Of a stretch of DNA of 64,000 nucleotides, positions 5,173-52,523 are shown in pieces. The position numbers were made by a program, and so were the translations under genes. The DNA lies in the NCBI GenBank assembly GCA_951813045.1, contig CATOTF010000002.1, positions 744,001 to 808,000 of the forward strand, read 5' to 3'. How positions within the stretch are numbered: position 1 is the stretch's first letter; the number at the start of each line of letters is the position of its first letter. A model generated the notes under the pieces. It ran no database searches. It saw nothing but the letters and a program-made list of their open reading frames with translations, and was not told the origin of the DNA. This stretch comes from an uncultured Rhizobiaceae bacterium. GTDB taxonomy: Bacteria; Pseudomonadota; Alphaproteobacteria; Rhizobiales; Rhizobiaceae.

Positions 5173-6828
5173 ATGGCATTAGCTGAGCCTCCAGAAGATT
5201 GTTTCTTTTTATTCGGGATGGGCGAATTGGGAGCTCAACCAGACCCTTCAATTATGGGAACCAAGGGTGCAAATCTGGCCAAAATGGCTGCACTTGGCCT
5301 ACCTGTCCCTCCTGGATTTGTCCTGAGTGCAAAACTGGGCCAAAAAATTGCAGCGGGTGACGACGCTCTTTCGAGCGAGCTTCGCCAGCAGGTTCAGGCA
5401 ACTATTGGTGAAATCGAAAATAAACTCGGGCGAGATCTTGGCAATGCAATTGCACCTTTAACGTTGTCAGTTCGTTCCGGCGCTGAAGTTTCGATGCCTG
5501 GAATGATGGATACGGTTCTCAATCTGGGCCTAAATTCAATCACCGTTGATGGCGTTGCCAAGGAAAGCGGAGACGAGCGCTTCGCCTGGGACAGTTATCG
5601 ACGGTTTGTCCAGAGCTTTTCTCAGGTGGTTCTGGACTTAGACAGTTACGATTTTGAAGATGTTCTGGATGAAGAACGCATTCGAAACAATGTCGAAACC
5701 GATGCCGATTTATCTGCGGAAGCCTTAAAACGGGTGACGGAAACTTTTTTGGAGATCGTTGAGCAAAATTTTGGAGAACCGTTTCCCCAAGATGTGTTTC
5801 GGCAATTGGATCTGGCGCTACTCGCGGTATTCAATTCATGGAATACATCCCGTGCAGTGCGCTATCGTGACATGCATAAAATTTCCCATGAAGGCGGTAC
5901 CGCAGCCATTATTCAGGCAATGGTATTTGGCAATCGCGATGAAAACTCCTGCACCGGTGTCTATTTTACCCGTAATCCATCCACCGGAGAAGCAATACCC
6001 TACGGCGAATACATGCCCAACGCGCAAGGGGAGGATGTGGTGTCGGGAATTCGCACTCCAATGGAATTGACAGAAGCTGCCAGAACCGCGGCCATGTCTG
6101 ACAATCCCTCCATGGAAAAGGCGATGCCGCAAGCGTTTGATGAGTTAATAATGCACGGTGAAGCTCTGGAAAATCACTTTAGTGATATGCAGGAAATCGA
6201 ATTCACGGTCGAAAGCGGAAATCTCTTTTTGTTGCAAACACGGAGCGGAAAACGCACACCGAAAGCCGGGTTAAAAATTGCGGTTGAACTGGTCAACGAA
6301 GGTAAGATTACCAAACAGCAGGCGGTTGCATCGTGCAATATATCAGATTTGGAAGGCATGCTTGTATCGAAAGTCCAGCCAAAACAAGGTGCAGTGATAA
6401 TTACGAAAGGTTTACCGGCTTCGCCGGGCGCAGCATGCGGCAAAATCGTATTTTCATCACATGAGGCTGAGCAATCTCACGATAATAGTGAGAGCTGCAT
6501 TCTGGTCAGGCCAGAAACTGACCCCAAAGATGTTCACGGTATGCACGCGGCCACGGGAATATTAACCACACGAGGTGGCATGACGAGCCATGCCGCAGTC
6601 GTTGCCAGGGGCATGGGAAAACCCTGCATAACCGCAGCAATGTCGCTAAAGATTGACCCAGGCAATCACACCTGCACGAGTGCGGGGCAGGTCTACCAAG
6701 TTTCGGATACAATCACGATCGATGGCAGCACTGGTCTGGTTTATGCTGGTGAGCAACCAATCGTCACGCCTGAACCGGACGGCGAGTTAGCAATTCTTCT
6801 CCACTGGGTCGAGGAGCTTGCGAAGTGA
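5173..6828 (+). CDS. Pyruvate phosphate dikinase-like protein without the PEP/pyruvate domain
   Basis: The 551-aa product matches the first two thirds of pyruvate, phosphate dikinase (usual length about 870-890 aa). The ATP-grasp nucleotide domain is intact by motif: GTKGANLAKMAALGLPVPPG near residue 30, LSVRSGAEVSMPGMMDT near 100, and YFTRNPSTGE near 265. The swivelling phosphohistidine domain follows, with TTRGGMTSHAAVVARGMGK carrying the catalytic H473. The protein then stops about where the linker to the C-terminal TIM barrel (PEP/pyruvate site) would begin. No remnant of that barrel was found downstream in the same direction; a convergent gene starts its coding end at 6870. The protein could not carry out the full reaction alone. 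It may be a phosphocarrier, work with a separate partner, or be decaying, although the frame is clean. Confidence 0.85.
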   Translation: MALAEPPEDCFFLFGMGELGAQPDPSIMGTKGANLAKMAALGLPVPPGFVLSAKLGQKIAAGDDALSSELRQQVQATIGEIENKLGRDLGNAIAPLTLSVRSGAEVSMPGMMDTVLNLGLNSITVDGVAKESGDERFAWDSYRRFVQSFSQVVLDLDSYDFEDVLDEERIRNNVETDADLSAEALKRVTETFLEIVEQNFGEPFPQDVFRQLDLALLAVFNSWNTSRAVRYRDMHKISHEGGTAAIIQAMVFGNRDENSCTGVYFTRNPSTGEAIPYGEYMPNAQGEDVVSGIRTPMELTEAARTAAMSDNPSMEKAMPQAFDELIMHGEALENHFSDMQEIEFTVESGNLFLLQTRSGKRTPKAGLKIAVELVNEGKITKQQAVASCNISDLEGMLVSKVQPKQGAVIITKGLPASPGAACGKIVFSSHEAEQSHDNSESCILVRPETDPKDVHGMHAATGILTTRGGMTSHAAVVARGMGKPCITAAMSLKIDPGNHTCTSAGQVYQVSDTITIDGSTGLVYAGEQPIVTPEPDGELAILLHWVEELAK

Positions 6829-6847
6829 GCCGTTTAAAGCTCACTTC
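6822..6847. terminator. Hairpin between convergent genes
   Basis: GAAGTGAG (6822-6829), which contains the stop codon of the dikinase-like gene, pairs with CTCACTTC (6840-6847) across a 10-base loop. It lies between two convergent genes and could serve both, but no strong T-run follows on either side. Confidence 0.45.
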
Positions 6848-6869
6848 AATTCGCCAGTAGATGTTCTGG

Positions 6870-8258
6870 TTAGGATCCCTGCAAACCTTCCTTTTTCAAC
6901 CATAGTTCGGTTTCATTCAACGCGCTTTGCAATCGGTCAAATAATAGATTGAGCTCATCTTCATTAATGATCATTGGAGGGCATATGGCGATCGTATCGC
7001 CAATTGGCCTCAGGATCACACCCTGTTCCTGACAAAGTTCAGCACATTTAGCTCCAACGCCTAATTTGGGGTCATAAGATTGTTTTGTTACTTTATCAGC
7101 GACGATTTCGACACCTGCCATGAGGCCCGAATTACGCACCTCACCAACCAACGGGTGAGTACTTAAATCCGCAAGCCGACGTTCGAACGTTGGTGTGATT
7201 GCACGAACTTTGGCACAAATATCCATACGTTGATAAATTTCAATCGCCTTCACCCCAAGCGCACAGCCAAGCGGATGTCCACCGTAAGTATAGCCGTGGC
7301 CAAAGACGCCGATTTTTGCTGACTGGGCTTCCAACGCGTCCATCATAAAGTCAGGAACCATCACAGCCCCAAGTGGTGCGTATGCTGATGTAAGCTGTTT
7401 TGCAGCTGAAATTGTATCTGGTTGCATGCCGTGGGATGTGGCGCCAAACCATTCTCCGGTTCTTCCAAATCCGTTGATGACTTCATCGTCAATCAACAGA
7501 ATATCGTGTTCTTTCAAGATGGGTTGTATGGCTTCGAAATAGCCCGACGGTGGTACAATGACACCGCCTGCACCCATGACAGGTTCGGCGATCATCGCCG
7601 CGATTGTGTCGCCCCCTTCTTTGTCGATCATTTGTTCAAGCGACGATGCCAGTCTGGAAACAAATTCCGCTTCACTCTCTCCATCTTGTCCAAATCGATA
7701 GTGGTGGGGGCAGTCAGTGTGCAAAATTCCGTCGAAAGGGAGGTCAAAATCGATGTGATTATTCGGCAAGCCGGTCAGCGAGGCAGCCATCAACGTCACG
7801 CCGTGGTAGGCCTTGATGCGTGAAATAATTTTCTTTTTCTTCGGTCTACCGAGAGCGTTGTTATAATACCACGCAAGTTTGACCTGTGTATCATTAGCCT
7901 CAGAACCGCTTGATGTGTAGAAAACCTTCGACATGGGTGTGGGAGAAAGTTCTTTGAGCTTTTCTGCAAGCTCAATCGCAGGCTCTGTGCCTTTCCCGGA
8001 AAACTGATGGTAATAGGGCAAGGAGCGCAACTGTTCGTTTGCGGCCTCAATCATTTCCTCGTTTCCAAAACCGAGCCCCGCACACCAAAGTCCGGCCATG
8101 CCTTCAATATATTCATTGCCCTGTGTGTCATAAATAAACACCCCCTTGCCGCTTGCCATAATTGTGGGGCCGGTTTCACGCAATTTATGCAACGCAGCAT
8201 AGGGGTGCAGGACCGCATCAAGATCGCGGGTTTGTACGTTTGATAAGGGCTGGCTCAT
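6870..8258 (-). CDS. Class III aminotransferase (omega-amino acid:pyruvate type)
   Basis: A 462-aa fold-type I PLP enzyme. The family motifs are present: GLWCAGLGFG near residue 60, FYTSSGSEAND near 120, KAYHGVT near 155, the IDDEVINGFGRTG segment with the cofactor-binding Asp near 265, and the Schiff-base lysine K287 in SAAKQLTSAYAPLGA. Members of this branch move the terminal amino group of omega-amino acids, diamines, beta-alanine or taurine to pyruvate or a 2-oxo acid; the substrate cannot be set from sequence. It stands alone, convergent with the dikinase-like gene and divergent from the acyl-CoA ligase. The start MSQPLSN fits the usual N-terminus. Confidence 0.88.
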   Translation of the reverse strand: MSQPLSNVQTRDLDAVLHPYAALHKLRETGPTIMASGKGVFIYDTQGNEYIEGMAGLWCAGLGFGNEEMIEAANEQLRSLPYYHQFSGKGTEPAIELAEKLKELSPTPMSKVFYTSSGSEANDTQVKLAWYYNNALGRPKKKKIISRIKAYHGVTLMAASLTGLPNNHIDFDLPFDGILHTDCPHHYRFGQDGESEAEFVSRLASSLEQMIDKEGGDTIAAMIAEPVMGAGGVIVPPSGYFEAIQPILKEHDILLIDDEVINGFGRTGEWFGATSHGMQPDTISAAKQLTSAYAPLGAVMVPDFMMDALEAQSAKIGVFGHGYTYGGHPLGCALGVKAIEIYQRMDICAKVRAITPTFERRLADLSTHPLVGEVRNSGLMAGVEIVADKVTKQSYDPKLGVGAKCAELCQEQGVILRPIGDTIAICPPMIINEDELNLLFDRLQSALNETELWLKKEGLQGS

Positions 8259-8394: not shown

Positions 8395-10023
8395 ATGCTC
8401 GGATTAATGCAAGACTGGCCTCTGTTGTGCCACAAGATTATCGATTACGCGGCGGCGCAACATGGTTCACGCGAGATCGTATCGCGTTCTGTTGAAGGGC
8501 CAATAACGCGGACAACCTACGCTGAAATCCACATGCGATCTAAAAAGGTGGCACAAGCCCTTGAGGCAGACGGTTTTGGCCTCGGCGACCGTGTTGCGAC
8601 TCTGGGATGGAATACCGCCCGCCATATGGAAGCCTGGTACGGAATTATGGGTGTTGGCGGTGTCTATCACACACTGAACCCGCGCCTGTTTCCCGAACAG
8701 ATCGCATGGATCATGAACCACGCGGAGGACAAGGCGATCTTTACCGATCTGTCATTTGTCCCAATTGTTGAGGCGATTGCAGATAAGGTGCCAAGCTTGC
8801 GGAAGATCATTGTTCTGACTGACGATGCCCATATGCCTAAGGAAAGCAAGCTTGATCTTGTTTCTTATGAAAGCTGGATTCAAGGCTATGATGGGGATTT
8901 CGCTTGGAAAGAATTCGACGAGAATACCGCTTGTGGCATGTGCTATACATCTGGCACAACTGGTGACCCCAAGGGGGTTCTCTATTCCCATCGGTCAAAC
9001 GTATTACATGCCTTGATTTCGGCGCAACCCGATGCCCTGGGCATGTCTTCCAATGAAACTATCATGCCGGTGGTGCCCATGTTCCATGCAAATGCATGGG
9101 GTATTGCCCATTCCGCCCCAATGGTTGGCGCAAAAATCGTAAACCCTGGCGGGCAGATGGATGGTGCATCCATCTATGAATTGCTGGACACGGAGAAAGT
9201 AACATTTACCGCGGCAGTTCCAACGGTCTGGCTGATGCTCTTGGGTTATCTGGAAGAAACCGGGAAAATGCTACCTCATCTCAAGCGTGTGGTGATCGGC
9301 GGTTCGGCTTGTCCGAGAGCGATGACCGAAAAATTTCAGGATGTTTACGGGGTGGATGTTGTCCACGCTTGGGGAATGACCGAGATGAGCCCATTGGGTT
9401 CACTTGGGTCCATTAAACCTGTCTACCAGAGTCTGACCGGGAGTGAAAAACTCGATCTTCAGGAAAAACAGGGTTACGCCCCGTTCGGTGTTGAGATGAA
9501 GATTACTGATGATGAAAACGTGGAACATCCATGGGATAGCAAAACATTTGGCCGCCTGAAAGTCCGGGGCCCTGCTGTTGCGGACGCCTATTATGGCGGC
9601 GCCGGTGCTGAGCAGTTCGACGATGAAAAGTGGTTTGATACTGGTGATGTCGCACACATCAATGAACACGGATACATGCAGATTACCGACCGCGCCAAGG
9701 ACGTAATCAAATCCGGTGGAGAATGGATTTCCACAATTGATTTGGAAAACCTGGCAGTTGGACACCCTGATATTCAAGAAGCTGCTGTGATCGGTATCGT
9801 GCACCCGAAATGGGACGAACGACCATTACTGATTTGTATTTGTAAAGAAGGTAAAACACCTTCTAAAGAAGAGATTCTTGCGTTCATGGATGGCAAGATT
9901 GCGAAATGGTGGATGCCTGACGATGTTGCTTTCGTTAATGAGATACCGCACACAGCGACAGGAAAAATTCAAAAAACAGAGCTCCGTAAACAATTTGCGG
10001 AGTATGTCCTACCAACTGCATAG
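8395..10023 (+). CDS. dmdB: 3-(methylthio)propionyl-CoA ligase-like acyl-CoA synthetase
   Basis: A 542-aa ANL-superfamily adenylating enzyme. The ATP-binding P-loop [18 protein letters not shown] is near residue 185, the [12 protein letters not shown] motif near 325, and the hinge [17 protein letters not shown] with a C-terminal catalytic Lys in [10 protein letters not shown]. The N-terminus [11 protein letters not shown] and the overall pattern resemble DmdB, which activates 3-methylthiopropionate from DMSP demethylation; medium-chain fatty acids are alternative substrates. I chose ATG 8395, preceded by GGGAGAA at 8384-8390, rather than an earlier in-frame start at 8302 that adds an unrelated leader. 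dmdA, dmdC and dmdD are not in the window, so the pathway link rests on similarity alone. Confidence 0.8.
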
Positions 10024-10063
10024 GGCCTATGCGTTAATTCGATAGGAAGCATCGGTATCAGAT

Positions 10064-11062
10064 ATGACAAACTATTTAGACCGTTTGTCGCACCAGGAAA
10101 GGAGAACCTCCTTTGCTGGTGTCTGGTGTGAAAGGCTTGCTGTATTCGCAGTTCCCTATCTTGCGATCGTCGTGTTGGGGCATCGGTTTGGGGCAGTCGA
10201 TACAATATCAACATTTTGGCTGTTGGGCTTGGGTATCCTGTTACTCATAGCAGCATTAATTGCCGGCGCATGGGGTTTTTACGAATTATGGACATATGGC
10301 CACTTAGCAGGGCTGAAATCAGCCCGCGGTATGGCCCTGTCAATCGTATTATTATTACCGTTTGCTTATCAAAGTGTCTTGGCGTTCACGCTTCCCCAAC
10401 TTTATGATATTTCAACGGACCTCGAGGACCCTCCAGCGTTTGATAGCGTTTTGGATGACCGGTTCTCGCCAATGAATCCGGTGATCGATCCTTCCGAAAT
10501 TACGAAACGCCTACAGCTACAATCCTATCCAAGAGTTGCCGCACGACGTTATCCGCTGGATACAGCGCGAGTATTTAAAGAGGTCGTTGCCTTGATGGCA
10601 GATCGTGACTGGACAATTTTAACGGCTGACACAAAACAGGGGCAGGCGCTTATTGATGAGGAGGGGTCGGGCCTGGTGGCTAAGCCAGTCGCTAACCTAA
10701 AGGGCATCCCACTTCGACCTTCGGTCCCCAGGTTCAGGCCAGGCGTGACCCCCGATGGGCAAGTAACCCCGGAAACAAGTGACGTTCCGTCTTTCGAAAC
10801 TGTACAGGTTTCGCCCATCGGTCGAACTGGTGGATTTGAAATTGAGCCGGATGACGAACGTTATGTGGAAGCTGTAGCGACGTCGCTTATCCTTGGGTTT
10901 GAAAGCGATGTTATTATCCGAATGGTTGAAGAGGAAGATGGAACCCTGGTGGACATGCGTTCTACATCCCGTTGGGGACCTCATGATCTGGGTTCAAATT
11001 CCAGGCGCATTATCGATTTTATGAATGATCTTGATTCTTCTCTTCAGGGGCTGAGCAACTAG
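10064..11062 (+). CDS. DUF1499 membrane protein
   Basis: A 332-aa protein with three predicted membrane helices in the first 115 residues (LAVFAVPYLAIVVLG, FWLLGLGILLLIAALIAGAW, GMALSIVLLLPFAYQSVLAF) and a soluble DUF1499 domain behind them. The domain is recognised by YPLDTARVFKEVVALMADR and by the closing segment VDMRSTSRWGPHDLGSNSRR. Function of the family is unknown. Around residues 205-250 there is a low-complexity Pro/Thr/Ser insertion. It follows the acyl-CoA ligase by 40 bases and ends 4 bases from the convergent hydrolase gene. Confidence 0.8.
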   Translation: MTNYLDRLSHQERRTSFAGVWCERLAVFAVPYLAIVVLGHRFGAVDTISTFWLLGLGILLLIAALIAGAWGFYELWTYGHLAGLKSARGMALSIVLLLPFAYQSVLAFTLPQLYDISTDLEDPPAFDSVLDDRFSPMNPVIDPSEITKRLQLQSYPRVAARRYPLDTARVFKEVVALMADRDWTILTADTKQGQALIDEEGSGLVAKPVANLKGIPLRPSVPRFRPGVTPDGQVTPETSDVPSFETVQVSPIGRTGGFEIEPDDERYVEAVATSLILGFESDVIIRMVEEEDGTLVDMRSTSRWGPHDLGSNSRRIIDFMNDLDSSLQGLSN

Positions 11063-45936: not shown

Positions 45937-46356
45937 ATGGAAATACAAAATAACGAAGACCAAACAATGCTGATGGAACTTACATCAGAAGTTGTTTGTG
46001 CATATGTGAGCAATAATCCAATTGCAGCTTCTGACTTAGCTGGTCTGATAAAGGAAGTGAATTCTGCATTGACATCCGTTTCGGGTGCTGAACAAGCTCC
46101 AGTGGTTGAAAAACAAAAACCGGCGGTATCCATTCGAAAGTCGCTCGGTCATGATCATTTGATCTGCCTTGAAGATGGAAAACCGTTTAAATCTCTAAAA
46201 CGGCATCTTAAAACTCACTACGATCTATCGCCCGACCAGTATCGCGAAAAATGGGGTCTACCGTCAGATTACCCTATGGTGGCACCTGCTTACGCGGAGG
46301 AGCGTTCGAGGCTCGCTCGCGAAATGGGTCTTGGAAGAAAACGCGCTGCTGCCTAA
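45937..46356 (+). CDS. mucR: Ros/MucR-family transcriptional regulator
   Basis: A 139-aa DNA-binding regulator typical of Rhizobiales, where MucR controls exopolysaccharide, motility and cell-cycle genes. The zinc-finger region runs from [20 protein letters not shown] to the conserved [18 protein letters not shown]. The usual second Cys is replaced by Asp: C77-x2-D80, with H90 and H94. Such variants are known among rhizobial homologs and use other residues to hold the fold. The N-terminal half is the oligomerising part. A strong terminator follows. Confidence 0.93.
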
Positions 46357-46419: not shown

Positions 46420-46504
46420 AATATTTTGAATTAAAAGCAGGTTTTAGGGGAGTGGCGGAAAAACATTTAATATTTATCCCCGCTCCTTGAAATAGGATTA
46501 TTAT

Positions 46505-46528
46505 GGCGATGTAGTGTTTGACAAACCC
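46505..46528 (+). repeat. Left terminal inverted repeat of the IS1595 transposon
   Basis: 24 bases from GGCGATG to ACAAACCC, perfectly inverted at 49589-49612. The 8-base target repeat ATTATTAT abuts it at 46497-46504. Confidence 0.97.
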
Positions 46529-46573
46529 AGTACGAATAGGGTATAAACTGGCATCAAATCAGGAACGCTAGTT

Positions 46574-47551
46574 ATGTCTATTCTATCCCGCTCTTACTTC
46601 CATTGTGAAAAAGCCGCTTTTAAGCATGTAGAGGCTTCTCTATGGCCGAATGGACCTTCTTGCCCTCATTGCGGTGGTACTGATCGCATTAAGCAGATGG
46701 ATGGTATTCGCACCAAACCCTCTAAGAAGAACCCAGAAGGTGTTGAGCGCTTTGGCGTAAAGAAATGCTACGATTGCCGTGGCCAGTTCACGGTCCGCAA
46801 AGGCACTATCTTTGAGGAAAGCCACCTACCAATGCACAAGTGGCTACAGGCCATCTATTTGATGACTTCCAGTAAAAAGGGTATTTCCAGCCATCAGATG
46901 GCCCGTACATTGGAAATTCAGGTTAAATCCGCATGGTTTCTCACCCACCGTATTCGTGCCGCTATGGCATCCGGCCTATTCGATATGTCCCCCATGGGCG
47001 GTGAAGGCATGACTGTGGAAGCCGATGAAACCTATATCGGTAAGAAAGAAGACCAAACACCACCGGAAGCCCGTAAAGGTCGCCCTTACATCAGTAAGAA
47101 GTCTGGCGTACAAAAAATGGCCGTTGTATCTCTAGTTGAACGTGTTGGCCGTGTTCGCTCTTTCCACGTTGATAATGCAACTAAGAAGTCTGTAACCGAG
47201 ATTGTTTGGCACAATGTATCCCGTCAAAGCGCCCTGTATACTGACGAAAGCCGCCTATACAACGATGTGCGTCCCAAGTTCGCAACATCCGGCATGGTCA
47301 AGCATTCTGATGGTGAATATGTCCGTGGTGACATTCACACAAACACCGTTGAGGGCTTCTACAGCATTTTCAAACGCGGCATGAAGGGTGTGTATCAGCA
47401 CTGCAAAGAAAAGCACCTACACCGCTATTTGGCCGAATATGACTTCCGTTATAACAACCGCGTTCGTTTGGGCGTGGATGATGTGGAACGCGCTAACATT
47501 GCGTTGTTGGGTGTTGTTGGGAAGCGCCTCACATATAGGTCAGCTCGTTAA
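46574..47551 (+). CDS. IS1595-family transposase (ISXO2-like)
   Basis: A 325-aa DDE-type transposase. The N-terminal zinc ribbon has CPHCGG near residue 30 and CYDCRGQFTVRKGTIFE near 65. The catalytic domain shows Asp in TVEADETYIGKKE, Asp in SALYTDESRLYND, and the HTNTVEGFYSIFKRGMKGVY segment near 265 with the last acidic residue, ending HRYLAEYDFRYNNR. The frame is complete, so the element may still move. Confidence 0.95.
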   Translation: MSILSRSYFHCEKAAFKHVEASLWPNGPSCPHCGGTDRIKQMDGIRTKPSKKNPEGVERFGVKKCYDCRGQFTVRKGTIFEESHLPMHKWLQAIYLMTSSKKGISSHQMARTLEIQVKSAWFLTHRIRAAMASGLFDMSPMGGEGMTVEADETYIGKKEDQTPPEARKGRPYISKKSGVQKMAVVSLVERVGRVRSFHVDNATKKSVTEIVWHNVSRQSALYTDESRLYNDVRPKFATSGMVKHSDGEYVRGDIHTNTVEGFYSIFKRGMKGVYQHCKEKHLHRYLAEYDFRYNNRVRLGVDDVERANIALLGVVGKRLTYRSAR

Positions 47552-47707
47552 TTCCGTAGCGCCAAGTAAGAAAAACAAACCACGGCAACTCAATTTTTGG
47601 AACCAAAGCGATAGTAAAAAATCCCGCGTTGGTAAGAGATATTAAATCTCTTGACGCAGTTTACTCCCACAGTTTGGTGACCTAGAATCGGGCATAGGAA
47701 ACTATTC

Positions 47708-48517
47708 ATGTCCAAGTTTAAAGAGGTAGAATTCAAATTATTTGGCTTGCAGCACGAGAAAGACGGTGCTGTGAGGGCGGATATTTTTGCGAAAAAACTT
47801 GGGCAGTTTATTGATGGATTGAAGTCTGCAGACAAATTTATCAACGGTCAAAAAAGCCTCAACTACCTGATCACTGATTTGGAATACGGAAGTGCCGTAG
47901 CTCGAATAAGTGAAGCACAGATAAGCAACAAAGTGCCTATCAAGAGTTCCAGCATAGAGCTTGTCGAGAATGCTATGTCTGACATTCGTGATGGAAAGCG
48001 AATTGACAAAGACTTTCCGCCTAGAGTTTTGAAGACCATCGCAGACCTAGGAAATGGTTCTCACAAAGAGTTCTCCCATGGCGAAATCGACTTTATAGGC
48101 AAAACTGACAATGTTGTTCGGATTGACGATTTTTTTGACAGGCGGGCAGACAAAGCGTTTCAGCAAACTGCTTTTCAGGTCGAAGAATCTGATGCTTATT
48201 CTGGAGTTGCGTTCGTAGAGTACAGCGGCACCGTCAAAGAGGTTGATCTGCGCGGTACGATTGCGAGTGCAAAACTGTTTTTAACGGCTGGTGGTGCTGA
48301 AATAGACTGCATATGCAATTCTGTTTCCGTTGATAATCTCGCTTCTGCATTAGATCATAAGGTGATGGTGAGCGGCAAAGCTTTTTACGACGGGCAAAGC
48401 AAGTTGCCCGAAAGAATCGATATCAACAACATTCGAATTTTGAAAGCGGATGCAAACCTCCTTCGATGGGAAGGGAGGTTCCACTTTGAGCCCTCTGAAT
48501 TGGGTGGGGCTATTTGA
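47708..48517 (+). CDS. Unknown 269-aa protein, cargo of the IS1595 transposon
   Basis: I do not recognise a family. The protein is soluble (no membrane helix or signal), mixed alpha/beta by pattern, with an acidic middle (FSHGEIDFIGKTDNVVRIDD) and a C-terminal half that reads like a beta-rich fold (SGTVKEVDLRGTIASAKLFL; KVMVSGKAFYDGQ). AGGA lies 9 bases before the ATG. Its stop overlaps the start of the PIN gene (TGATG), so the two are translationally coupled. That arrangement, small coupled genes with a PIN nuclease second, is common in toxin-antitoxin and defence pairs; an antitoxin, adaptor or nucleic-acid-binding role is inference only. Confidence 0.8.
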   Translation: MSKFKEVEFKLFGLQHEKDGAVRADIFAKKLGQFIDGLKSADKFINGQKSLNYLITDLEYGSAVARISEAQISNKVPIKSSSIELVENAMSDIRDGKRIDKDFPPRVLKTIADLGNGSHKEFSHGEIDFIGKTDNVVRIDDFFDRRADKAFQQTAFQVEESDAYSGVAFVEYSGTVKEVDLRGTIASAKLFLTAGGAEIDCICNSVSVDNLASALDHKVMVSGKAFYDGQSKLPERIDINNIRILKADANLLRWEGRFHFEPSELGGAI

Positions 48518-49083
48518 TGAAGAACCTTTTTTGGGATTCCAATGTCTTCATTGCATTCATCAATGATGAGAACGAAGCCTACGACGTCGATAGCATCCGT
48601 CAATTTCTGATGGAGTGCCAAGGCAAAGGCAAGAAGTATCACATATACGCTTCAACGATGTCATTGGCAGAAGTCACACCTGGAAAAATGAAAAGTCAGG
48701 AATATGGGGAGTTTCAAGATTTCCTCAATGATTTTGAAGGTGTGATTGACTTAATTTCTCCAGACCCAAACATCATTAAACTTGCCGGCCATTTAAAGGA
48801 CAAAAAATACAAAAAGGGGTCGTCTGACAAAAGAATAATGACTATGGGCGATGCGATAATTGTAGCGACTGCAGTGGAATTGGAGGATACTTTTAATGTC
48901 CCGATTACTCATTTTCACACCTTCGATGATGGTAAGGGGAAAATCGGACCAGAAGGTGCCAAAGGTATTTCTCTCTTAAATTTCGCCGAGTGGTGTGAAG
49001 GAATCGAAGACGATCCCCACGTTGCGCGTGTATTGGAATTGGACATTTGCAAACCAAATCACCCCGAAAAGCACCTAGTATGA
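48517..49083 (+). CDS. PIN-domain protein, cargo of the IS1595 transposon
   Basis: A 188-aa PIN-like putative ribonuclease. Acidic residues expected of a PIN active site are visible: D7 in LFWDSNVFIAF, Glu in STMSLAEVTPG, Asp in TMGDAIIVATAVEL and Asp in THFHTFDDGKG. It is longer than most VapC toxins (about 130-140 aa), with a C-terminal extension after the PIN fold (NFAEWCEGIEDDPHVARVLE). ATG 48517 overlaps the upstream stop. Targets unknown; RNA cleavage is the family expectation. Confidence 0.85.
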   Translation: MKNLFWDSNVFIAFINDENEAYDVDSIRQFLMECQGKGKKYHIYASTMSLAEVTPGKMKSQEYGEFQDFLNDFEGVIDLISPDPNIIKLAGHLKDKKYKKGSSDKRIMTMGDAIIVATAVELEDTFNVPITHFHTFDDGKGKIGPEGAKGISLLNFAEWCEGIEDDPHVARVLELDICKPNHPEKHLV

Positions 49084-49235
49084 CCAAAGAAAAAACCCAA
49101 ATCGACAAATTCCGCGATACCGCCCGTGAGCTAGAAGCGGACGAATCCGAAGCTGCGTTTGACGCAAAGCTGCGTAAGCTTGTTGGTGCTCCTACAAAGG
49201 AACAGGAAGCTGAAGCTACAAAAGAGAAGAAATAA
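49080..49235 (+). CDS. Small charged protein, third cargo gene of the IS1595 transposon
   Basis: A 51-aa, highly charged, probably helical protein (KFRDTARELEADESEAAFDA, then KLRKLVGAPT). Its ATG overlaps the PIN stop by ATGA. Short proteins with this ARELE-DE-E-FD pattern are, to my recollection, often found beside ISXO2-like transposases, which would make it part of the element rather than of the PIN unit; I cannot confirm that here. Confidence 0.65.
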   Translation: MTKEKTQIDKFRDTARELEADESEAAFDAKLRKLVGAPTKEQEAEATKEKK

Positions 49236-49238
49236 CGC

Positions 49239-49361
49239 TTAGTCGTATGCGTCTCTCAGCTTCAAGTATTCAATAGCAAGCATTAGAATGCCAGCTTGAA
49301 AGTCGTCATGATTGAACAACGCCTCTATTAAGGCGTGTTCAAGGGTTTGTCGCAGGCTCAT
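49239..49361 (-). CDS. Possible 40-aa ORF at the right side of the IS1595 transposon
   Basis: A 40-aa frame on the minus strand, MSLRQTLEHALIEALFNHDD then FQAGILMLAIEYLKLRDAYD, with AGGGG about 9 bases before the ATG. Composition is that of a real small helical protein. It converges on the cargo operon with 3 bases between stops. No family known to me. Confidence 0.45.
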   Translation of the reverse strand: MSLRQTLEHALIEALFNHDDFQAGILMLAIEYLKLRDAYD

Positions 49362-49588
49362 ATTCACTACCCCTCAGTAGATTATAATGTTCGTAAGAGG
49401 ACACAAAACAAAAGAGGAGTCCACTTTTTAGCAAAATTAATCATGCTTGCAGCAATGTGGATGAGCACATTACTTTACCTTTCGTTAAGTGATAATAACG
49501 CAACGTAAGGCTTCTAATATCCCTCATATTGTTGCCTTAGGGTGGATGGGTTACTGTCGCAGGCGGCTCACCACCCGATTATATTGAC
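49362..49588. other. Non-coding right-hand part of the IS1595 transposon
   Basis: No convincing gene. It contains the upstream region of the 40-aa ORF and a 21-codon open stretch from 49450 without support. The last 50 bases approach the right inverted repeat. Confidence 0.5.
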
Positions 49589-49612
49589 GGGTTTGTCAAA
49601 CACTACATCGCC
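49589..49612 (-). repeat. Right terminal inverted repeat of the IS1595 transposon
   Basis: Perfect inverse of 46505-46528, ending CTACATCGCC, followed by the second ATTATTAT at 49613-49620. Confidence 0.97.
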
Positions 49613-49654
49613 ATTATTATCCTATAAATTCTTCTCTGGGAGCCTGCGACAACT

Positions 49655-50239
49655 ATGAAGATCACCGATTCAAACCTTTCCGCCAATTCCTTTCCTGAAA
49701 GTACGGGTATTCGCCGTTCGGATAATATTCAGCCTCATCGGGCTGAATTTCTTAACATTGAAGCAAAATCTAACCATCAATCGCACGATAAGACGTCTTG
49801 TGGTGAAAATGTTTTTCGCCTTCAGACATCCGTCGATCTACAATATGTCAAGGACGATACCGCCACTCCAATGTTACCATACGGAGAGGCGGTTTGCGCG
49901 TTATGCGAGAAAACTGTCTCACTAGCGTTGGGTATTTCGTTAGAGGGCCTTTTGGCTAAAACACGTTGCAATGCAGAAACGGCATTGGCCCGACAAATTG
50001 CGATGTATTTGTGCCACACCACATTTAGCCTGTTATTAACGGAAATTGGCGTGCACTTTGGGAGAGATAGAACCACTGTATCCTATGCCTGTGCATTGGT
50101 GGAAGATAAACGGGATGATCCTGAATTCGATTTAATGCTGAGCCAACTTGAAGCTTGTCAATCCCAGCCTAAAATGGGTCTTGATCCCGGAGTAAAATTG
50201 GCCAGATTTTGGGACGTTTGTGTTTTTGATCTGGTTTAG
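49655..50239 (+). CDS. DnaA domain IV-like helix-turn-helix protein, 3' end replaced by IS21
   Basis: A 194-aa frame. Residues 113-170 resemble DnaA domain IV: ARQIAMYLCHTTFSLLLTEI, then HFGRDRTTVSYACALVEDKR. Stand-alone proteins with this domain occur in Rhizobiales near mucR and sufE; a regulatory DNA-binding role is likely. GGGAG precedes the start. From about residue 176 (GLDPGVKLARFWDVCVFDLV) the sequence is the terminal region of the IS21 element, since CGGAGTAAAATT at 50188-50199 is repeated inverted at the other IS end. The native C-terminus is thus lost, though the domain itself is complete. The IS1595 transposon sits 35 bases upstream and probably cut its promoter away. Confidence 0.78.
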   Translation: MKITDSNLSANSFPESTGIRRSDNIQPHRAEFLNIEAKSNHQSHDKTSCGENVFRLQTSVDLQYVKDDTATPMLPYGEAVCALCEKTVSLALGISLEGLLAKTRCNAETALARQIAMYLCHTTFSLLLTEIGVHFGRDRTTVSYACALVEDKRDDPEFDLMLSQLEACQSQPKMGLDPGVKLARFWDVCVFDLV

Positions 50240-50241
50240 TG

Positions 50242-51018
50242 TCAGTTGATTTGAACAGATTTTTGTTTTCGGCTCTGGTGCAACCTGTAGCTTTCACCAT
50301 TCATCTCCAGGATGTGGACGTGGTGTGTCAGCCGGTCGAGTATTGCGCCCGTTAGGCGTTCTGATCCGAAGACCTCTGTCCATTCGTCGAATGGTAGATT
50401 GGATGTGATGATGATGGAACCGCGTTCATACCGTTGGCTGATTACTTCGAACAGCAACTCCGCCCCGGTTTTGGAGAGAGGGACGAAGCCCAGTTCGTCA
50501 ATGATCAGCAGGTCTTGAGCTGCCAGTTGTTTTTGATGCCGTTGCAAGCGACGTTCATCAACGGCCTCGATCATCTCATGAACCAGTGCAGCAGCCGTGG
50601 TGAAGCGGACTTTCATCCCCTTTTGGCAGGCAGCCAGTCCAAGGCCGAGGGCAACATGGGTTTTGCCGGTTCCACTTGGTCCTAACGCGATGATGTTTTG
50701 GCGTTTCGCAGCGTACTCGCAACGGGCCAGTTCCATCACGAGCACCTTGTTCACTGACGGGATCGTTTTGAAGTCAAAGCTGTCGAGGCTCTTGGTTGCC
50801 GGGAACTTCGCAGCTTTGATGCGTCGCTCCACCATTCGGCGCTCACGTTCAATCAGCTCCAACTCACATAACCGCAGGAGATATTGGACATGATCCTTAT
50901 TCTCAGCGGCACATTGTTGGGCCTGTTTGGTATATTCACTCTGGAAGGTTGGCAGCCGAAGTTTGGTCAGATGATGTTTGAGTAGAACTTGCGGTGTATC
51001 GGTAACAGTGTCGTTCAT
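50242..51018 (-). CDS. istB: IS21-family helper ATPase IstB
   Basis: A 258-aa AAA+ protein that assists the transposase in target choice. Walker A ALGPSGTGKTHVALGLG is near residue 115; Walker B LLIIDELGFVPLSKTGAELL near 170; SERLTGAILDRLTHHVHILE closes the domain. It overlaps istA by four bases (ATGA). Confidence 0.95.
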   Translation of the reverse strand: MNDTVTDTPQVLLKHHLTKLRLPTFQSEYTKQAQQCAAENKDHVQYLLRLCELELIERERRMVERRIKAAKFPATKSLDSFDFKTIPSVNKVLVMELARCEYAAKRQNIIALGPSGTGKTHVALGLGLAACQKGMKVRFTTAAALVHEMIEAVDERRLQRHQKQLAAQDLLIIDELGFVPLSKTGAELLFEVISQRYERGSIIITSNLPFDEWTEVFGSERLTGAILDRLTHHVHILEMNGESYRLHQSRKQKSVQIN

Positions 51019-52523
51019 GCTGCCGCCTCCGACAACAGCACGGCATAGCTGGCAGGTTTTGTCGTCTCGACCACCGCTTTGGGCAAATAGGGGTAGATGT
51101 CGAGATCAAGCCTGGGCGGTCGCCGCTCGATCCGGCACAGAATAAGGTGCTTGATCGCATCATAGCCAATGGCACCCAGATCCAAAGCTTGTTGGATTGC
51201 GGCGTGAACGTGCTCCAGCTCAAAAGTTTCCAGCAGACGCAGGATCTGAACATACTCGCGTTTTCCCGCCTTACCCATGCGGGCTTCTAATAAACGATGA
51301 AGGATCGCAAATGCATCGGGTAAACCCCAGCCTTGCAATGGTGCCGCCTGATCGAGAGCACCTACCTTTTGTTCCAGCAAGGGCAGATAGTGAAGCGGGT
51401 CGAAGATCATGTCTGCCTTCTCATAAGACCGACGATGGCGGGCAATAATCTCGGTTCCACTGCCAATCACAACCTCATGGATGTAACCGCGAACCTGAAC
51501 CTCATGATGGGCAAAGGCGACAGGAACGGAGTAATCATTATTGCGGTAGCGGATCATCGAGATTGACGTTGCCCGCGTGCTAAACTTTTCACACGCGTCG
51601 TATGGCGTTGGGGGCAATGCCATCAGCGCGTCCAGGTCTCTCAGCAATCGTTCACCAATACTCTCACCATGTCCGCGAACAACATCATCCTGACGCTTCA
51701 GGCAGCATTCTTCCAACCAGGCGTTCAAGGCATCAAAGCTGTCGAACCGTGGGGCTGGGATGAGAAAGTTCCTGCGACCGTAACCAATGACGCCTTCGAC
51801 ATTCCCTTTATCATTGCCTTTGCCAGGGCGACCAAACTTATCCTCAAACAGATAGTGCGATTGTAGCTCTGAGAAAGTTCTCGTGCGTATCCGTTTGCCA
51901 CCGCCCAGGATCTTTGCAACTGCAATCACGGTGTTGTCGTAGAGCATCGACAACGGCACACCGCCGAAGAAAGCAAACGCAGCATTGTGACCGTCACAGA
52001 AGGCTTCTGTTGTTTCCGCCGGATACGCCTTCATGAAGAACGCATCCGAATGCGGCAACGATATAGCGATGTAATGCAGCTTGCGTTCGACACCGTCGAT
52101 CACGCCGAACGTCTCACCAAAATCGACCTGAGCATGGCCGGGCGCGTGAACCAGAGGAACAAACACCTCCTGGGTTCGTCTTTGCTTCTCACGCACATAA
52201 TCAGTGACAATGGTGATCCCGCCAGTGAACCCGTGCTCATCCCGTAACCGCGCATGAATACGCTTGGCTGTGTGCCGTTGCTTTTTGATGACCTTTTTGT
52301 CGTCTTTCAGGATCTGATCAATTATCCCAACAAACGGATCCAACTTCGGGCGAACAGGCGCGGTCGTTCTTTGATAACCGGGCGGAACCGAGTGCTTCAG
52401 GATCTTCGCCACGGTTTTGCGATCAATCCCGAACAAACGGGCCACCTCGCTATTGTTCTTCCCATCCACATGGCACGCTCGACGCACCCGACTATACAAA
52501 TCCACAGAATACATCTTCCCCAC
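51015..52523 (-). CDS. istA: IS21-family transposase IstA
   Basis: A 502-aa DDE transposase. The N-terminal helix-turn-helix is NNSEVARLFGIDRKTVAKIL; the integrase core has Asp in HAPGHAQVDFGETFGVID, a second Asp in LSMLYDNTVIAVAK and Glu in NVEGVIGYGRRNFLIP. Frame complete. Confidence 0.95.
   Translation of the reverse strand: MGKMYSVDLYSRVRRACHVDGKNNSEVARLFGIDRKTVAKILKHSVPPGYQRTTAPVRPKLDPFVGIIDQILKDDKKVIKKQRHTAKRIHARLRDEHGFTGGITIVTDYVREKQRRTQEVFVPLVHAPGHAQVDFGETFGVIDGVERKLHYIAISLPHSDAFFMKAYPAETTEAFCDGHNAAFAFFGGVPLSMLYDNTVIAVAKILGGGKRIRTRTFSELQSHYLFEDKFGRPGKGNDKGNVEGVIGYGRRNFLIPAPRFDSFDALNAWLEECCLKRQDDVVRGHGESIGERLLRDLDALMALPPTPYDACEKFSTRATSISMIRYRNNDYSVPVAFAHHEVQVRGYIHEVVIGSGTEIIARHRRSYEKADMIFDPLHYLPLLEQKVGALDQAAPLQGWGLPDAFAILHRLLEARMGKAGKREYVQILRLLETFELEHVHAAIQQALDLGAIGYDAIKHLILCRIERRPPRLDLDIYPYLPKAVVETTKPASYAVLLSEAAA

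Follow-up and report, generated by a model that had tools for sequence, protein, structure and literature searches.

Why would a transposon of little more than 3 kb carry, behind its transposase, an operon that includes a gene for a PIN-domain protein? The question is raised by an IS1595-family element of 3,108 bp (positions 46505-49612) in a 64-kb stretch of DNA from an uncultured Rhizobiaceae bacterium (GCA_951813045.1, contig CATOTF010000002.1, 744,001-808,000, forward strand). This whole stretch is termed the window, and positions refer to it. The transposase gene is followed by three coupled genes, encoding a protein of novel type termed U, the PIN protein and a small charged protein termed S (Table 1). 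As detailed below, U and PIN constitute a two-gene unit that recurs inside as well as outside of IS1595 elements, while on comparison of related sequences S looks like a lineage-specific backbone protein and U-PIN like one of several exchangeable cargoes.

Searches with U queries led to 14 distinct loci, and in 14/14 a PIN gene is located directly after U. These loci comprise the window, genomes G300, G346, G502, G487, G389, G442, G398 and G697, two loci in G588, a plasmid of Roseomonas marmotae, Rhizobium sp. SG_E_25_P2 and the Pseudomonas phage vB_PaeS_AV001. PIN queries yielded ten loci, nine with U, the exception being G035, where the PIN frame contains a stop. At that locus (L013) the PIN relative spans positions 9861-10433, with one stop, and the neighboring open reading frame (ORF; 10473-10913) is short and OB-like by eye; the two may be what is left of a decayed pair. 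Among 18 U-PIN junctions, 16 overlap by 1-26 nt and two exhibit a 2-nt gap, the larger overlaps being upper values because start codons were chosen, often the one furthest upstream. In the window, the junctions read TGATG (U/PIN) and ATGA (PIN/S), just as the original prediction for this stretch of DNA had pointed out.

U was detected in 3/385 genomes of the class (search with one sequence), 7/249 of the order and 2/398 of the phylum (searches with an alignment), the source genome being counted in each. A scan of genome contigs with the single U sequence gave no match, while the U alignment retrieved three loci (G300 and G502 again). Two scans of viral contigs with U alignments gave none, and the PIN alignment retrieved five viral contigs, all of which contain U. 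The pair also resides on two plasmids, the one from Methylobacterium with a divergent U; related transposases turned up in 128 plasmid records, and seven regions were examined. When further relatives of U or PIN were used to search plasmids and phages, the Pseudomonas phage was the only new find. The proposal that the pair is a portable unit whose members recur together was thus borne out by all 14 U loci, in IS1595 elements, viral contigs, a phage and elsewhere; nor did U turn out to be a known housekeeping family.

With regard to genomic surroundings, an IS1595 element or its remnant houses the pair at seven of the 14 U loci (window, G300, G487, G398, G697, Roseomonas and G588 contig 12). 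The transposase is in three pieces in G300 and broken in G697, while in G398 a transposase fragment is present and ends were not found. On G588 contig 12 the transposase (31% identical) comes from a distant branch of IS1595, and its element has perfect 24-bp ends of its own plus an 8-bp duplication. Six loci (G346, G502, G389, G588 contig 9, Rhizobium and the phage) lie outside such elements and lack a related transposase in their vicinity, and one, G442, was assigned to neither home because only about 400 bp of contig precede U. In the phage, no related transposase is annotated within the 7.8 kb around the pair. The pair adjoins a gene annotated as repressor, and the PIN gene itself is annotated as "repressor protein" and matches the PIN profile at 8e-26. 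In Rhizobium, the gene before the pair resembles by eye a penicillin-binding protein gene and one further along a terminase gene, and on viral contig L042 the pair appears by eye to be opposite in direction to the phage-like genes. Viral contig L045 carries an IS1595-type transposase (6555-7430, 35% identical) about 3 kb from its PIN gene.

Among six pairs outside of recognized elements, flanking repeats of at least 12 bases were direct in L033 only, while L017 showed a 13-base inverted match. In L033 (G588 contig 9), an 87-nt direct repeat (5451-5537/6914-7000, 95% identical) flanks the U-PIN pair; by eye, the pair sits where a glgC-like gene seems to begin, and a long target was apparently duplicated upon insertion. 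A SIR2-like gene suspected by eye beside L017 was not confirmed by a search of solved structures.

To place the window element among its relatives, an order-level transposase search was performed in 249 genomes, which gave 78 matches in 49 genomes. The best 43 of the 78 were examined, i.e., 40 fetched loci, the window and G487 counted together. Together with ten loci from other searches, the transposase-sampled loci (42) make up a set of 52 elements; L041 (Methylocystis, transposase 36% identical, without S or a convincing PIN match) remains outside. The elements are 1.9-4.3 kb in size with one transposase each, and 48 have inverted repeats matching in at least 17 of 24 positions. Of these 48, 37 also have a duplication identical in 8/8 positions, as found by a procedure that favors ends with duplications. 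A relative of S is present in 24/52 elements, always on the transposase strand, and a second small-protein family, termed B, in 22/52, always on the opposite strand, some of the B matches being weak (E up to 0.02). S and B occur together in 0/52 and both are lacking in 6/52. PIN is found in 10/24 elements with S, 0/22 with B and 2/6 with neither. Within the 42 transposase-sampled loci the corresponding numbers are 17 with S, 21 with B and four with neither, and all six with PIN also carry S. A motif like ARRRDEVVRRMANTPPQPR is seen in B proteins, e.g., in L108, L110, L113 and L116, and in L107 B lies in the same frame as a Trypsin_2 ORF.

A careful tree was derived for 46 transposases, omitting the long-branch sequence L032 as well as the broken or cut sequences L012, L034, L035, L036 and L040, the latter five also being omitted from a quick tree. 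In the careful tree, 21/21 rows with S fall on one side of a single branch (support 99/95; recovered in 98% of 200 bootstrap replicates, which had not fully settled), while PIN needs four changes within the S clade. Forcing the eight PIN carriers into one group, which was named after the quick tree was known, was narrowly rejected (p-AU, the approximately unbiased test, 0.043). B requires five changes if rows with neither protein are included, and a single one if the count is restricted to rows with S or B. The quick tree agrees, with one change for S and five for PIN within S. An S search in the 249 order genomes gave 28 matches, 19 of them at E up to 1e-8. An IS1595 transposase or a piece of one is found no more than 3 kb away from 18/19 of these strong matches (all but G480) and from three of the nine weaker ones; one of the other six is at a contig end. 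Pseudosulfitobacter possesses transposase and S without U, PIN or any other large co-directional cargo gene, and the S family accompanies at least five kinds of cargo. S follows the transposase while the cargo changes, and therefore S reads as part of the transposon backbone; its listing as a third cargo gene in the original prediction is not supported.

What else is carried in the position of the pair was assessed for 30 of 40 listed cargo ORFs, which were picked by length, so that some may lie on the wrong strand. Against Pfam, 14 scored above cut-off, three gave weaker matches only and 13 none at 0.01. Elements with S carry DUF3800 in five cases, P63C in two (one also with DUF3800), NYN in one and DUF1829 in one. 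Those with B include a Panacea antitoxin-like protein (L085), a RelA/SpoT-like protein (L108) and Trypsin_2 (L107), and L086, with neither S nor B, encodes a Panacea protein. Of nine cargo proteins compared with PADLOC, the NYN protein matched HEC-09 (1e-24) and the RelA/SpoT-like protein PDC-S33 (6e-96), four had matches of lesser strength, between 6e-7 and 8e-4, and the remaining three had none. On the basis of these Pfam and PADLOC matches the slot therefore often, not always, holds toxin- or nuclease-like genes, and the cargo of sister and cousin elements would fit a stabilization or defense role for the pair. In L105 the picked cargo ORF lies opposite a U-like frame. L092 (G283), an S element of 4.3 kb, encodes an N6/N4 DNA methylase that includes a region resembling Mrr (5525-7123), beside a divergent U-PIN pair.

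The designation of the 188-residue protein as PIN proved right, though weak by sequence: its Pfam PIN match (2.5e-4, 22.1 bits) stays under the cut-off of 23.6, and three of four relatives match (0.0024, below cut-off, to 2.5e-6), the piece from G035 giving none. The predicted fold agrees. The best matches of the model in the PDB are VapC-kind toxins (4xgr, 3zvk, 5ecw; E 5e-4 to 2e-3, template modeling (TM) score 0.41-0.43), one of the 475 matches passing 0.001. The window protein has acidic residues D7, E52, D112 and D137. In an alignment of 18 PIN sequences, from which that of G035 was excluded, three of the acidic columns are kept in 18/18 and the fourth in 16/18, the exceptions being L088 and L091 of a divergent sub-group. 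As judged from the model, the protein resembles VapC in fold, with a conserved acidic active site. The long C-terminal extension noted earlier is real; its tail is poorly modeled, and the Pro-x-His motif within it is clear in the nearest relatives only.

Neither Pfam nor NCBIfam contains a family that matches U, and U relatives comprise 246-288 residues with 13-45% identity to the window protein. An AlphaFold model built from four sequences (predicted local distance difference test (pLDDT) 77, predicted TM score (pTM) 0.55) was compared with the PDB by Foldseek, which gave 29 matches of all kinds at E up to 0.001. The C-terminal region matched the OB folds of lysyl-tRNA synthetase (LysRS) and bacterial single-stranded DNA-binding protein (SSB) over about 100 columns (E about 1e-4 to 1e-3), and is predicted to form an OB fold. 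By profile comparison, four of the five sub-groups of U are connected (U1-U1b 99.9%, U1-U4 99.1%, U1b-U4 96.8%, U2-U4 96.3% probability); U2, the Methylobacterium kind, is joined well via U4 only, the direct U1-U2 comparison giving 18%. Sequence searches of solved structures with PIN, U and transposase gave no match, nor did PHROGs for six proteins.

A VapC-like ribonuclease preceded in translation by a larger partner with an OB fold is most simply read as a toxin with its restraining protein. The IS1595 lineage would retain transposase and S and exchange the genes beside them inside its ends. U would bind and restrain PIN, its OB-fold domain perhaps sensing or positioning nucleic acid. VapC toxins cut tRNA or rRNA, and PIN, once released because U is lost, titrated or triggered, e.g., upon phage infection, might likewise cut RNA, perhaps tRNA or rRNA, so that growth stops. 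The outcome could be abortive-infection defense, an addiction device or both, since addiction and phage defense are not mutually exclusive. In our view, the copy next to a phage repressor and the copies away from transposons tip the balance towards defense. What the data show directly is the transposon, the pairing and overlap of the two genes, their spread through transposons and phages, the conserved acids and the separation of S from the cargo; toxicity, neutralization by U, the RNA target and any protection are inferred. We regard this reading as a whole, an IS1595 lineage with swappable cargo in which U-PIN acts as a toxin-antitoxin or abortive-infection pair, as standing evenly between acceptance and doubt.

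Several observations weigh against it. U is far larger than the usual VapB antitoxins and has no recognized DNA-binding domain. The PIN model, built from four sequences, is of moderate confidence (pLDDT 66). None of the PIN proteins scanned matched PADLOC, and among U proteins only weak PDC-M32A matches were obtained there (best 3e-4, in at most 3/18), three further U proteins giving no match even at E 10. G035 holds a PIN relative in a broken frame without recognizable U, and in a fifth partner sub-group (L088, L091) PIN is accompanied by a protein that has no statistical link to U. No known defense gene was confirmed beside the copies outside of transposons. Nor does the slot always contain a toxin-like gene, with 13 of the 30 scanned cargo ORFs lacking a Pfam match at 0.01 and three matching below the cut-off only.

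The strongest competing explanation is pure addiction, in which the toxin-antitoxin pair would only prevent loss of the transposon, plasmid or prophage and have no effect on phages. The compact overlapping genes, the location of the pair on transposons, two plasmids and viral sequence, and the other toxin- or antitoxin-like genes in sister and cousin elements all suit this idea. It accounts less well for copies of the pair that lack a related transposase in the vicinity (e.g., L015, L014, L033), and the swapping of cargo in the S clade implies that the element needs no single pair. We consider it unlikely, if worth keeping in view. Still less probable is a defense system without toxin-antitoxin logic, in which U, as a sensor or targeting subunit, would guide PIN to phage RNA and PIN would be harmless without U. 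The predicted OB fold and the length and diversity of U could be accommodated by this idea, as could the best two matches of U among viral models, both full-length, to a DUF6575 protein (E 2.3e-8) and an unnamed one (E 2.7e-8). DUF6575 is listed among defense components in the available part of PMC9519451. Yet the TM scores to these two phage proteins are just 0.37 and 0.41, and none of 18 U proteins matches Pfam DUF6575 at E up to 1, so that the likeness exists at the level of the fold only.

Two further explanations are disfavored. Proteins of RNA processing commonly contain PIN or OB domains, and the pair could be a housekeeping enzyme with its helper captured by chance, which the patchy occurrence of U in class, order and phylum and its mobile homes render very improbable. 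That U and PIN regulate IS1595 transposition is hardly credible: a PIN gene does lie downstream of the transposase in 12/52 elements (ten of the 52 not being from transposase sampling), but it is absent from 40/52, is gained or lost about four times within the S clade, and for six of the 14 U loci there is no related transposase nearby, a seventh (G442) being cut by the contig end.

VapB proteins are small DNA-binding proteins. The pair shares with VapBC the VapC-like PIN fold with four acids and the order of overlapping genes, partner first, and differs in the size and predicted OB fold of U, which is not a small DNA-binding partner, and in the C-terminal extension of PIN. Tn7-like transposons are larger and use a different transposition machinery, unlike the 1.9-4.3 kb elements with one transposase described here. 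Varied defense-type cargo is common to both (Benler et al., 2021, PMC8649781, available part). Among tested systems, PD-T4-10 is a toxin-antitoxin defense pair acting by abortive infection that likewise consists of two overlapping genes, antitoxin then toxin (Vassallo et al., 2022, PMC9519451); according to that paper, no function was predicted for either protein, and the term "PIN" is absent from the main text. The comparison concerns gene order and overlap. Identity with PDC-M32 was rejected in view of the weak M32A matches, the lack of PADLOC matches for the PIN proteins scanned and the absence of M32A and M32B together, and a PDC-M32A search in 81 family genomes gave one match (G451), which has neither U nor PIN as a neighbor. 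Passenger genes in IS1595 elements are already known, and according to the available part of PMC5704250, tISCpe8 and MTnSag1/tISSag10 share with the window element the transposase family, repeats of about 25 bp and extra genes inside; the examples named there concern lincomycin resistance and mobilizable elements, where here U-PIN and S are found.

In the literature covered, mostly open access, we found no account of a U-PIN unit in IS1595 elements and none of a PIN toxin with an OB-fold antitoxin partner; the terms IS1595 and PIN domain co-occur in PMC6211672, as far as that text is available. We accordingly file the transposon family and the toxin fold as known, and the partner class and the division into backbone and cargo with a lineage-specific small protein as new. 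U-PIN is thus a concrete two-gene unit, on transposons and phage sequence, with a class of partner not found for PIN toxins in that literature. It suggests that tiny single-transposase elements, usually filed as insertion sequences, may be vehicles for swapping toxin or defense genes. A bolder version, towards which we are slightly more skeptical than inclined, is that the S-marked IS1595 lineage, along with its B-marked sisters, is a dedicated miniature carrier that swaps toxin-antitoxin or defense modules, and that U-PIN is an unrecognized defense family common to transposons and temperate phages. The role of the constant protein S in transposition is open to direct testing.

The features of the window element are compiled in Table 1.

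Table 1. Features of the IS1595-family element and its immediate flanks in the window.
Feature	Position	Strand	Basis
Target duplication, left copy, 8 bp ATTATTAT	46497-46504		Sequence
Terminal inverted repeat, left, 24 bp, perfect	46505-46528	+	Sequence scan
IS1595-family transposase, 325 aa, intact	46574-47551	+	Pfam PF12762, PF12760; NCBIfam NF033547
Palindrome AAGAGAT-5-ATCTCTT upstream of U, candidate operator	47634-47652		Could be chance
U, 269 aa, unknown N-terminal domain, predicted OB fold about 165-244	47708-48517	+	AlphaFold model, Foldseek; Pfam/NCBIfam blank
PIN-domain protein, 188 aa, VapC-like predicted fold, C-terminal extension after about 138	48517-49083	+	Pfam PIN, model
S, 51-aa charged protein, putative backbone of this IS1595 clade	49080-49235	+	Transposase tree, S searches
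Terminal inverted repeat, right, 24 bp, perfect	49589-49612	-	Sequence scan
Target duplication, right copy, 8 bp ATTATTAT	49613-49620		Sequence

The assignment to IS1595, already made in the original prediction, is confirmed by a DDE transposase with zinc ribbon (transpos_IS1595 NF033547, 2.9e-55; DDE_Tnp_IS1595 PF12762, 6.8e-33; zinc ribbon PF12760, 2.2e-7), by inverted repeats that match in 24/24 positions and by target duplications identical in 8/8, a duplication of 8 bp being a trait of this family. No further copy of the repeats is present in the window with three mismatches allowed, and the chance expectation for such matches in the window is 0.00. The source genome contains no other copy of the element, and elsewhere it encodes another transposase of IS1595 type with 41% identity. 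The 7-bp arms of the palindrome lie about 55 bp before U, and at least one equally good palindrome arose in 31/500 shuffles. Rfam and tRNA scans gave no match, a promoter scan did no better than shuffles and a terminator scan found fewer candidates than in shuffles. The element is flanked by a gene for a MucR-type regulator (45937-46356) on one side and a gene with a DnaA-C domain (49655-50239) on the other. Beyond the latter, on the minus strand at 50242-52523, two adjacent ORFs of 258 and 502 residues are IS21 istB/istA-like by eye. In two relatives of the element, L077 (3843-4148) and L037 (5966-6232), positions being given in transposase orientation, small reverse-strand ORFs near the right end appear Cas2/VapD-like by eye.

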